Assembly: GCF_029360665.1 (NCBI RefSeq)
Contig: NZ_JARDUB010000003.1
Span: 310,001 to 374,000, forward strand
DNA: 64,000 nt
Direction: 5' to 3'
Source of the DNA: Eudoraea chungangensis
Lineage (GTDB): Bacteria > Bacteroidota > Bacteroidia > Flavobacteriales > Flavobacteriaceae
Below, one piece after another: positions 51,269 to 59,438 of the stretch. Under the pieces are notes generated by a model. That model did no database searches. It was not told where the DNA came from and worked only from the letters and a program-made list of their open reading frames with translations. The translations under genes and the position numbers were made by a program. The first letter of the stretch is position 1, and the number at the start of each line of letters is the position of its first letter.

Positions 51269-51428
51269 GGCCCTGAATAACTTTTTAACACCTATTTACA
51301 TCTTTTCTTTTTAATTTTAACTTCTTGTTATTGAAGCAGTTACGCTTTATTAATATTTTTCTTACTTCTTTCATTCTGACCTAAACACAAAATATCTAAT
51401 TCTTCAATAAATCAAAATTTTATTAATA

Positions 51429-51449
51429 TACCCTTAAATTTTAGGGGTA
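51429..51449 (+). promoter_or_regulatory. Upstream palindromic operator copy of the PII-amtB cluster
   Basis: TACCC-TTAAATTTTA-GGGGTA. It shares TAAATTTTAGGGGTA with the second copy; the centres are about 52 bases apart, five helical turns. In an A+T-rich context the GC tips stand out. Confidence 0.65.
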
Positions 51450-51480
51450 TTAATTATTATAATTATAAAAATTATATATG

Positions 51481-51502
51481 TACCCCCTAAATTTTAGGGG
51501 TA
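51481..51502 (+). promoter_or_regulatory. Promoter-proximal palindromic operator copy of the PII-amtB cluster
   Basis: TACCCC-CTAAATTTTA-GGGGTA with perfect 6-base tips and an AAATTT centre. Its centre is about -39 from the predicted start, over the place where a -33 box would be. This position suggests an activator replacing -33 contacts, or a repressor. Confidence 0.65.
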
Positions 51503-51517
51503 ATCTTTTTTATAATA

Positions 51518-51525
51518 TATATTTG
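51518..51525 (+). promoter_or_regulatory. -7 element of the PII-amtB cluster
   Basis: TATATTTG, 25 bases before the PII ATG. No consensus TTTG lies at the right distance; the palindrome occupies it. Confidence 0.6.
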
Positions 51526-51550
51526 TCGAGATCAACAATAAAATTTAAAA

Positions 51551-51889
51551 ATGAAAAAAGTTGAAGCAATTATTAGAAAATCCAAATTTGACGATGTAAA
51601 GAAAGCATTGCATCAAATTGAGGTAAACTTCTTTAGTTACTGGGACGTAACGGGAGTGGGCAATGAAAAACAGGGACATGTCTATCGAGGCATTTCCTAT
51701 AGTACAACAGACATACAGCGTCGCTATCTGGAGATAGTAATATCGGACGAGTTTTTAGAAAAAACCGTTAACGCTGTATTGGAAGCCGCATACACGGGAA
51801 ATGTGGGTGACGGTAAAATATTTGTATCTGATGTATTAGAAGCCTACAGAATTCGAACCAAAGAAAACGGCCAAGCCGGAATTAATTAA
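51551..51889 (+). CDS. P-II family nitrogen regulatory protein
   Basis: 112 residues, full length. PII proteins sense 2-oxoglutarate and ATP/ADP and, when encoded next to amtB, usually gate the ammonium channel. The opening KKVEAIIRKSKFDDVKKAL and the B-loop TGNVGDGKIFV and C-loop RIRTKE are standard. The T-loop GNEKQGHVYRGISYSTTDIQ is one residue shorter than in E. coli GlnB but keeps both Tyr; whether it is uridylylated is unknown. First gene of PII-amtB-porin, 23 bases before amtB. Confidence 0.93.
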   Translation: MKKVEAIIRKSKFDDVKKALHQIEVNFFSYWDVTGVGNEKQGHVYRGISYSTTDIQRRYLEIVISDEFLEKTVNAVLEAAYTGNVGDGKIFVSDVLEAYRIRTKENGQAGIN

Positions 51890-51912: not shown

Positions 51913-53163
51913 ATGGATGCAGGATTATTTACAGCCAATAACGTTTGGATGATGGTATGTACAGCCTTGGTATTTTTTATGCACACAGGCTTTGCCTTCT
52001 TAGAAATTGGGCTTACCAGACAAAAAAACACAATAAACATATTATTTAAAAACATTTTTATCATCACCGTAGGTCTACTACTATACTATATAGGAGGCTT
52101 TAATTTAATGTATCCTGGCTTTGCAGAAGGTTCCAGTGGCATTATAGACTTTGCAGGATTCGGTATTGCAGCACCTGAAAACGGAATGACCCCTGAATAT
52201 GCAGATGGTGGATATACTTGGTGGACAGACTTTCTCTTTCAAGGAATGTTTGCAGCTACAGCGGCAACCATAGTATCAGGAGCAGTGGCGGAAAGAATTA
52301 AAATAGCTCCCTTTATGATATTTACTATTTTATATGTTGGACTTATATATCCTATTGTTGGTTCATGGCAATGGGGTGGTGGTTTTCTATCTTCCTTAGG
52401 TGGAGATGAAGGATTCTACGATTTTGCGGGCTCTACCCTAGTTCACTCTGTTGGAGGATGGGGAGCACTTATCGCAATTTATTTATTAGGTGCCAGAATT
52501 GGAAAATTTGACTCTGATGGGAAGCCAAATGCGATCCCTGGTCACAACATCCCTATGGCAACAGCTGGGGTACTTATTCTCTGGTTAGGCTGGTTTGGTT
52601 TTAATGGAGGTTCTGTACTTTCTGCAGACCCTGAAGCTACCTCCCTAGTATTAGTTACCACATGTTTAGCAGCAGCCGCAGGTGGTGTTGCCGCTATGTT
52701 AACCTCTACATTTATGTATAAAAACATGGACTTAACCATGTTCTTAAACGGAATTTTGGGTGGTCTAGTAGGAATAACCGCCGGTGCAGATCTTATGTCA
52801 CCAACCGAAGCAGTAATAATCGGTCTTATCGCTGGTGTAATCATAGTCTTAGGAGTTGCCTTCATTGACAAAATAAGACTGGATGATCCGGTAGGAGCCG
52901 TAACAGTTCACCTTATTTGCGGAATCTGGGGAACATTGGCAGTAGGATTATTTGGAGCCAAAGCCGGAGCACAACAACTAATATACCAGCTTACTGGTGT
53001 AGCTGCGGTAGGTGTTTTCTGTTGTGTAACTGCCTTTATCATAATATTCGCCCTTAAGAAAACAATGGGAATAAGAGTAGACAAAGAAGAAGAAATAAAT
53101 GGTTTAGATCTAATTGAGCATGGAATGGATGCTTATTCAGATTTTAGAATGAACCAGCATTAA
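51913..53163 (+). CDS. amtB: Ammonium transporter AmtB
   Basis: 416 residues with eleven hydrophobic helices and no leader peptide. The twin pore histidines are H178 (STLVHSVGGWGAL) and H333 (AVTVHLICGIWG). The Amt signature DFAGSTLVHSVGGW is complete, and the C-terminal cytoplasmic tail (RVDKEEEINGLDLIEHGMDA) has the G-x-D/E-x-x-x-H-G pattern that PII contacts. It takes up ammonium when nitrogen is scarce. It follows the PII gene directly; a stem-loop at its 3' end separates it from the porin gene. Confidence 0.97.
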   Translation: MDAGLFTANNVWMMVCTALVFFMHTGFAFLEIGLTRQKNTINILFKNIFIITVGLLLYYIGGFNLMYPGFAEGSSGIIDFAGFGIAAPENGMTPEYADGGYTWWTDFLFQGMFAATAATIVSGAVAERIKIAPFMIFTILYVGLIYPIVGSWQWGGGFLSSLGGDEGFYDFAGSTLVHSVGGWGALIAIYLLGARIGKFDSDGKPNAIPGHNIPMATAGVLILWLGWFGFNGGSVLSADPEATSLVLVTTCLAAAAGGVAAMLTSTFMYKNMDLTMFLNGILGGLVGITAGADLMSPTEAVIIGLIAGVIIVLGVAFIDKIRLDDPVGAVTVHLICGIWGTLAVGLFGAKAGAQQLIYQLTGVAAVGVFCCVTAFIIIFALKKTMGIRVDKEEEINGLDLIEHGMDAYSDFRMNQH

Positions 53164-53271: not shown

Positions 53272-54432
53272 ATGAAATCATTTACAAATACAAGTTACAT
53301 AAAAAATCTGTTTTTATTAGCAGTGCTTATTCTTGCCTCCTCAGCATTTGCACAGGAAGAGGAAGAGGAGAAAAAAATGACATTCAATTTTAGTGGATCG
53401 GTAGATGCCTATTACAGAACCAACTTTAATGGCCTAAATAGTAAGGTCCCTGTTATTGAGAATGGTGTAGAAATCGGCGAAATAGAACCTAGTGCGCCTG
53501 GAACCTCTTTTGCAAATGACCATGGTTTTTCCATTGGTATGGCAAACTTAATCTTAGGTTATGAGGGTGAAAAAGTAGGCTTTGTGGCCGACTTAGTTTT
53601 TGGTCCAAGAGGAGAAGACGCTGTATTTAATGATATAGGGTCAACTAATATTGTAAACCAATTATATGTGTATTGGAATGTTAGTGAAAAAGTTACCCTA
53701 ACCTTTGGTAATTTCAATACTTTTTTGGGATATGAAGTAATATCTCCTGTTGCTAATTTCAATTATAGTACTTCCTATATGTTCTCTTATGGTCCCTTTT
53801 CTCATGCGGGTCTTAAGGCCGACTTCGATTTAGGAAACGATTGGTCAGCAATGGTCGCTATTTTGAATCAGACAGATTTCACCTCTTCGGCCAGAGTAAG
53901 TGATTTTAGTTTTGGAGCGCAAATTGGCTATGCCGGTCAGTACTTAAATTTTCTTTATGGAAAACAAGGTATAGACAAAGTTTTAATAGATGGAAACATA
54001 GTGGAACCGAGTATATCTGGTCTATTTCAAATAGACTATACCGGCGGCTTTAATTTTGGAGAAGACTTTTTCTTAGGAATTAATGCAACCTATCAAGATA
54101 CAGGAGATGTTGGCTTTGACGAATTTACTCCAGATGATCTTGGATTCTATGGGGTAGCCCTTTATCCACAATATACTACCTCTGAAACCTTTACAATTGG
54201 GTTAAGAGGAGAATATTTTAGTGAAATTGGAGATTATGGAGCCATTGGTACAGGAGTAGAAGATTCTAATGTTTTTGCCTTAACCGCTACAGGAAATATT
54301 CAACTTGGGAATCTGGCAATAAAACCAGAAATAAGATTCGACACAGCTTCCGATGATGCCTTTTTAAATTCAGATCTAGTAGCTCAGGATAATTTATCCT
54401 CCTTCTTATTGGCTGCCGTTTATGCCTTTTAG
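53272..54432 (+). CDS. Outer-membrane beta-barrel porin (OmpL/bbp2-like) of the ammonium cluster
   Basis: 386 residues. Signal peptide of about 27 residues (KNLFLLAVLILASSAFAQ), an acidic EEEEEKK start and alternating beta strands (FNFSGSVDAYYRTNF, ANLILGYEGEKVGFVADLVF, LTFGNFNTFLGYEVISP) to a C-terminal FLLAAVYAF with terminal Phe. This is the putative porin family often downstream of amtB in Bacteroidota. It probably lets a small nitrogen compound through the outer membrane (inference from context). A terminator hairpin follows. Confidence 0.85.
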   Translation: MKSFTNTSYIKNLFLLAVLILASSAFAQEEEEEKKMTFNFSGSVDAYYRTNFNGLNSKVPVIENGVEIGEIEPSAPGTSFANDHGFSIGMANLILGYEGEKVGFVADLVFGPRGEDAVFNDIGSTNIVNQLYVYWNVSEKVTLTFGNFNTFLGYEVISPVANFNYSTSYMFSYGPFSHAGLKADFDLGNDWSAMVAILNQTDFTSSARVSDFSFGAQIGYAGQYLNFLYGKQGIDKVLIDGNIVEPSISGLFQIDYTGGFNFGEDFFLGINATYQDTGDVGFDEFTPDDLGFYGVALYPQYTTSETFTIGLRGEYFSEIGDYGAIGTGVEDSNVFALTATGNIQLGNLAIKPEIRFDTASDDAFLNSDLVAQDNLSSFLLAAVYAF

Positions 54433-58991: not shown

Positions 58992-59438
58992 TTAAATTTG
59001 TTTTATTGGGGCTTGAGAAACTACATCCGAAAGAATAATATGGGTTCTGGTTTCACCATATCTAATCAATTGATCAATAAATTCTTCCAAATGCCCCTGA
59101 TCTTTTAATACTACTTCCATCACAATGTTCTCATTACCCGTTATTCGGTAACAATTGGTTACCTCGGGAAGCCCAGGTACCATTTCCAAAAATGGCTTAA
59201 GTTTCCCCATAAAAGCCCTTAAAGTTATGATAGCTTTTAGTTGATAACCTGCCTTAGCGTAAGAGACTTTCGCCTTAAAGCCTTCCAATATTCCACTGTC
59301 TTCCATTTTTTTAATTCTCTCCGCCACAGCAGGAGGTGTTAGTCCTACTTTTTTCCCTATCTCGACCAAAGATTGTCTCGAATTTTGCTGCAGTATGGCA
59401 AGTATTCTCCAATTCAAATCGTCTATCTTATCTATCAT
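58992..59438 (-). CDS. Lrp/AsnC family transcriptional regulator
   Basis: 148 residues. N-terminal winged helix-turn-helix (LNWRILAILQQNSRQSLVEI, GKKVGLTPPAVAERIKKMED, SGILEGFKA) and C-terminal RAM/AsnC ligand domain (about 65-145: VTNCYRITGNENIVMEVVLK). It binds an amino acid and forms dimers to octamers. It is a single gene; the divergent neighbour is the helical protein at 59555. An inverted repeat at 59484-59506 is a possible binding site. Confidence 0.93.
   Translation of the reverse strand: MIDKIDDLNWRILAILQQNSRQSLVEIGKKVGLTPPAVAERIKKMEDSGILEGFKAKVSYAKAGYQLKAIITLRAFMGKLKPFLEMVPGLPEVTNCYRITGNENIVMEVVLKDQGHLEEFIDQLIRYGETRTHIILSDVVSQAPIKQI

Follow-up and report, generated by a model that had tools for sequence, protein, structure and literature searches.

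The textbook regulators of nitrogen genes have been mapped in phyla other than Bacteroidota. In Bacillus, GlnR and TnrA (MerR family), whose consensus is TGT-N11-ACA, target glnA, amtB-glnK, and glutamate synthase; in cyanobacteria, NtcA (CRP family) acts from an activator-type position near -40 upstream of nitrogen genes, glnB and amt among them; and in Proteobacteria, amtB-glnK and glnA are controlled by NtrC and sigma-54. In the class II/III CRP promoters of E. coli, tandem dimers are known to be separated by approximately five turns and to flank the alpha C-terminal domain of RNA polymerase. Sa-Lrp of Sulfolobus binds the control regions of gltB, gdhA, and glnA with glutamine as a cofactor (PMC3584215). 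Within Bacteroidota, low ammonium strongly induces amtB, glnK, glnN, and gltBD in Prevotella ruminicola, and no regulator is named for this induction in the sections of that study available to us (PMC5552732). Transcription-level control of nitrogen genes in Bacteroidota appears to be open, with no named regulator found in the literature searched, and we found no published description of the motif reported here or of a nitrogen regulator for this group (subscription journals were mostly not covered). Marine algal matter is degraded in large part by flavobacteria, and their nitrogen switch is therefore relevant to the turnover of carbon and nitrogen in the sea.

The locus studied here lies in the window, i.e., the whole stretch of 64,000 nucleotides of Eudoraea chungangensis DNA that was analysed. 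A PII gene of the glnB/glnK type (51551-51889, forward strand; Pfam P-II, E-value 1e-22) is the first gene of an operon that continues with the ammonium transporter gene amtB (51913-53163, forward strand; Pfam Ammonium_transp, E-value 2e-116) and a gene for a porin (beta-barrel porin-2; 53272-54432, forward strand; Pfam BBP2, E-value 3e-65), and the porin gene accompanies PII-amtB in relatives as well. A gene for an Lrp/AsnC-family regulator (58992-59438, reverse strand; Pfam HTH_AsnC-type and AsnC_trans_reg), which by its synteny is a circumstantial candidate only, is also found near PII-amtB-porin in several relatives (five loci), sometimes almost adjacent.

Consensus scans of the 282-bp intergenic region (51269-51550) gave no match to the sigma-54 promoter TGGC-N5-TTGC at up to two mismatches or to the NtrC site GCAC-N5-TGGTGC at up to three, which agrees with the initial annotation in its claim that the palindromes found there are neither sigma-54 nor NtrC sites. 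The same region contains no match to NtcA GTA-N8-TAC or to the AmtR site and no exact match to TnrA/GlnR TGTNA-N7-TNACA, whose sole one-mismatch match (51284) is far from the promoter. None of the consensus sequences scanned for (sigma-54, NtrC, NtcA, TnrA, AmtR, CRP, FNR, NarL 7-2-7, and E. coli Lrp) gave a match that explains the sites. The locus resembles GlnR/TnrA systems in its targets, in the A/T centre of its sites, and in the 11-bp gap between their outer triplets, but these triplets are CCC/GGG here rather than TGT/ACA, and the sites stand in tandem at a five-turn spacing with an A-tract. It is like NtcA promoters in the activator-type position near -40, whereas GTA-N8-TAC is absent and one genome with the sites (G052, 90% complete) yielded no CRP-family gene. 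The operator may work like that of a GlnR- or NtcA-kind nitrogen regulon, although membership in either is not supported. The genes concerned are of the kind that NtrC and sigma-54 govern in Proteobacteria, but the promoter here is of the TAnnTTTG type, with neither a -24/-12 promoter nor an NtrC site. Compared with E. coli CRP promoters, the tandem layout is similar, but the binding sequence is another one and the promoter is a sigma-A promoter of the Bacteroidota type. Sa-Lrp of Sulfolobus acidocaldarius offers a further likeness, in that one regulator acts at gltB and several glnA control regions through A/T-rich sites; however, it is archaeal, and a CCC/GGG palindrome with fixed promoter spacing is not reported for it in the accessible part of the source (PMC3584215).

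Paired palindromes upstream of PII-amtB

The distal palindromic site TACCCTTAAATTTTAGGGGTA (51429-51449, no strand assigned; centre 51439.0) is located at about -91 from the predicted transcription start and is conserved at orthologous promoters, and the proximal one, TACCCCCTAAATTTTAGGGGTA (51481-51502, no strand assigned; centre 51491.5), is located at about -39, over the place of the -33 box. The initial annotation had reported both palindromes, with centres about 52 bases or five helical turns apart and with the proximal copy covering a missing -33 box. Both sequences were confirmed at their coordinates, the distance between centres was measured as 52.5 bp (5.0 turns of 10.5 bp), and the proximal site does cover the -33 place in promoters that have no -33 box. 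The sigma-A -7 box of Bacteroidota (TAnnTTTG), here TATATTTG (51518-51525, forward strand), starts 26.5 bp after the proximal centre, its distance to the sites being fixed in relatives, and is followed by the PII start at 51551. Between the two sites lies an A-tract, ATAAAAAT (51465-51472, forward strand; centre about -61), which is inferred to be a possible place for the alpha C-terminal domain of RNA polymerase. In the absence of a mapped start, the positions near -39, -91, and -61 were derived from Flavobacterium psychrophilum, in which the TAnnTTTG -7 box occupies -12 to -5 (PMC9723704).

A 15-mer shared by the two palindromes, TAAATTTTAGGGGTA, has exactly two copies in the 3.73-Mb genome, both of which are the pair in the window. 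A lone loose palindrome is not rare, however, as approximately one match to TACCC-N11/12-GGGTA with no more than one mismatch is expected per 64 kb; the weight of the evidence therefore rests on the pair and its conservation, not on a single site. The half-sites are ACCC(C/T), and the distance between them varies by about 1 bp.

Upstream regions of PII were read in two sets of relatives. In the first set, which came from a PII search of 120 Flavobacteriaceae genomes, the pair recurs with a spacing of mostly 51.5-53.5 bp, and TAnnTTTG is found 25-26.5 bp from the proximal centre. The second set comprises 79 loci with public record names, which were drawn separately and take in Maribacter, Cellulophaga, Robiginitalea, Flagellimonas, Lutibacter, Salegentibacter, and Christiangramia (the nearest PII is from an uncultured Eudoraea, 96%). 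Here 65 of the 79 PII-amtB upstream regions reached a pair score of at least 15, versus none of 1,580 dinucleotide shuffles, with a spacing of 51-54 bp and TAnnTTTG mostly 24-27 bp below the proximal centre. Chance falls far short of accounting for the pair at this spacing. The two sets are not fully independent, since part of the first was used to train the scoring matrix and they have some species in common. A lack of conservation at orthologous amtB promoters, which the initial annotation had named as grounds for refuting its proposal, was thus not observed.

About one-fifth of the PII upstream regions do not contain the pair, and in many of those PII comes after porin or amtB. In G044 and G062, where other genes precede PII, a pair with a spacing of 52-53 bp is present upstream of those genes; G342 has one strong site, located between gltB and porin-PII-amtB. 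The sites are thus found further upstream where PII is not first, which indicates that they belong to the promoter rather than to the PII gene or the gene preceding it. No site whatever was detected before PII in a few relatives (L031 and L032). Outside Flavobacteriales, the paired site is absent from the seven PII upstream regions read, a small sample in which some PII genes follow a porin gene. In the Muricauda/Flagellimonas group (four loci), the distal site is near perfect and the proximal one degenerate, with the ACC half often retained, and some PII promoters (two loci) carry three sites, consecutive ones being about 53 bp apart.

Promoter geometry and other nitrogen genes

Alignment of 66 promoters on the first T of TAnnTTTG places the CCC/GGG columns at -87 to -85/-73 to -71 for the distal site and at -35 to -33/-20 to -18 for the proximal one, counted from that T. 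The element AAAAAT at -51 to -46 is present in 55 of these promoters, its columns being 83-97% conserved across all 66. Two TT pairs, at -64/-63 (0.89/0.89) and -6/-5 (0.89/0.80) from the first T, are also strongly conserved before PII.

An exact pattern search of the own genome returned only the known PII site and was too strict; we therefore used a sequence profile built from 45 single sites, which is short and gives only rough E-values. In the own genome, the matches after the PII pair were a site 302 bp before gltB and a site between the divergent GSII and GSIII genes. In 25 relatives, sites were found at 26 other places, 15 of which are nitrogen genes (eight GS, two gltB, and five ald), the other 11 having no evident nitrogen link. 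Across Flavobacteriales, 33 of 119 genomes contain a profile match (E-value of 0.03 or lower) versus approximately four expected, and at 19 of the 28 loci read across the order the sites precede GSIII, ald, gltB, or amtB, with GSIII and amtB matched in families of the order other than Flavobacteriaceae. The enrichment of the motif at PII/amtB, gltB, and glnA with a common position near -40, which the initial annotation had proposed as support, was thus found, and the amt/PII, GS, and GOGAT genes have an operator in common, as is required of a nitrogen-assimilation regulon. The gene order leuS-[site]-ald-zinc peptidase-Lrp is conserved (three loci), suggesting that an ald regulator may be encoded next door. 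In addition, a weaker site (L157, position 3002; C2:106302 in the own genome), which may be due to chance, lies between a TPR-LuxR regulator gene immediately upstream and an amidohydrolase-like gene that follows.

In genes other than PII-amtB, the proximal copy is often reduced to a half-site. At seven of eight GSII promoters, which are not homologous to the PII promoter, the distal centre is 77.5-78.5 bp from TAnnTTTG and a CCC half-site occupies the proximal place. Single sites before GSIII are located 37.5, 47.5, 49, 55.5-58, and 60.5 bp from TAnnTTTG, and a period scan of their positions peaks at 10.4 bp (R 0.75, n = 9), which is an exploratory result found after looking. Such phasing is what an activator contacting RNA polymerase would give. 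The suggestion that proteins bound at the two palindromes lie on the same DNA face is strengthened by the constant spacing of 51-54 bp in relatives and by the helically phased appearance of the single sites at these nine promoters, the latter being exploratory.

Candidate mechanism and binding protein

The interpretation we prefer, with a probability of approximately 0.77 and without binding, expression, or mutant data, is that the palindromes are operators of one protein that activates a nitrogen-assimilation regulon in Flavobacteriales from sigma-A promoters. If so, a single DNA-binding protein would govern PII-amtB-porin, glutamine synthetases, gltB, and alanine dehydrogenase; its dimers would most likely occupy positions near -39 and -91, on the same side of the helix and separated by five turns, and the A-tract between them may accommodate the alpha C-terminal domain of RNA polymerase. 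Activation of the class II/III type is inferred, with the -39 dimer possibly standing in for the missing -33 contact, and the sigma-A promoter would be switched on when nitrogen is short. Nitrogen limitation as the signal is an inference from the target set and from the parallel in Prevotella ruminicola (PMC5552732). We are less sure of, but on balance slightly favour, the broader idea that Flavobacteriales have a nitrogen regulator of their own, which is no orthologue of NtrC, NtcA, GlnR, TnrA, or AmtR and switches on GS, GOGAT, alanine dehydrogenase, and the uptake of ammonium via a tandem CCC-N11-GGG operator and a dedicated A-tract. The conserved operator, defined targets, and exact geometry make the question directly testable by providing bait DNA and bases to mutate.

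It is also conceivable, if unlikely, that the sites are operators of a repressor that silences the promoters when nitrogen is plentiful. The overlap of the proximal site with the -33 region would suit this explanation, and repression logic exists for such nitrogen genes, as in the case of AmtR and GlnR. However, there is no -33 box in these promoters, and the sites, the one at -91 included, keep fixed and apparently helically phased distances to TAnnTTTG, so contact with RNA polymerase fits better than blocking. A role of the palindromes in terminating transcription of the upstream crcB gene can practically be set aside: a simple terminator scan does pick up the two palindromes (the proximal one as CCCCTAAATTTTAGGGG followed by TAATCTTTTT), but this possibility was rejected because sites also occur in divergent GSII/GSIII intergenic regions, and moreover the distance to the downstream promoter is fixed and many sites are half-sites only, which could not form a hairpin.

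Regarding the protein that would act as the activator, Lrp/AsnC is the leading candidate family because Lrp genes are neighbours of three target loci, which is circumstantial evidence. Within the activator explanation, we tentatively suggest, with less than even confidence and no binding shown, that a regulator of this family responds to an amino acid, for example glutamine or asparagine, and either wraps the two sites or forms a bridge between them. An Lrp gene is a neighbour of PII-amtB in the window and in relatives, an Lrp-like gene is a neighbour of GSIII in two genomes of one genus, and LrpB is encoded two genes from ald (three loci); furthermore, G052 has the paired site and no HTH_Crp_2 or GerE match, yet Lrp genes are present. 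On the other hand, the Lrp neighbours of the three loci are different paralogues, general synteny may explain the proximity of the window Lrp gene to PII, and the E. coli Lrp consensus has no match here. An LrpA-type gene is still possible but probably widespread. LrpB, promising beside ald, was rejected as it is absent from G118 and from the genomes of f70, a small-genome family, all of which have perfect sites. One Lrp-family gene remains in f70, which is LrpA-like by similarity only.

A small MerR-family protein acting like GlnR/TnrA of Bacillus is a doubtful second candidate. It was considered because the CCC-N11-GGG geometry equals that of TnrA/GlnR, with an A/T centre, and a MerR protein of 108 aa is encoded in G052. 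However, geometry alone is weak evidence, the MerR gene of G052 is near alaS with nothing tying it to nitrogen genes, and the closest solved relatives of the 108-aa protein are only remote MerR proteins.

Regulators of the NarL/FixJ (GerE) or CRP/FNR type are disfavoured and appear more doubtful still. TACCCCT resembles the NarL heptamer, the -39/-91 layout resembles tandem CRP promoters and the site position and phasing those of CRP class II/III promoters, and the own genome has several members of each family. However, neither GerE nor HTH_Crp_2 exceeded the threshold in G052, which is 90% complete and has the sites, and the sole GerE match in G099 (95% complete, sites present) is weak and falls within a 947-aa frame. 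The intergenic region has no CRP or 7-2-7 NarL match with up to two mismatches, and its only FNR-like match (51522, two mismatches) is off the palindromes.

No constant regulator gene was observed beside the sites in their neighbourhoods in other families of the order. With regard to autoregulation, the 74% of the G052 genome examined revealed no good site at any regulator gene, and there was no obvious case among the sites of relatives. Regulators of the NtrC, LysR, OmpR, Lrp (two), Fur, DtxR, TetR (two), MarR, AraC, MerR, and XRE types are encoded in that part of G052. In both genomes of the small-genome family f70, an XRE regulator gene is located two genes from GSIII.
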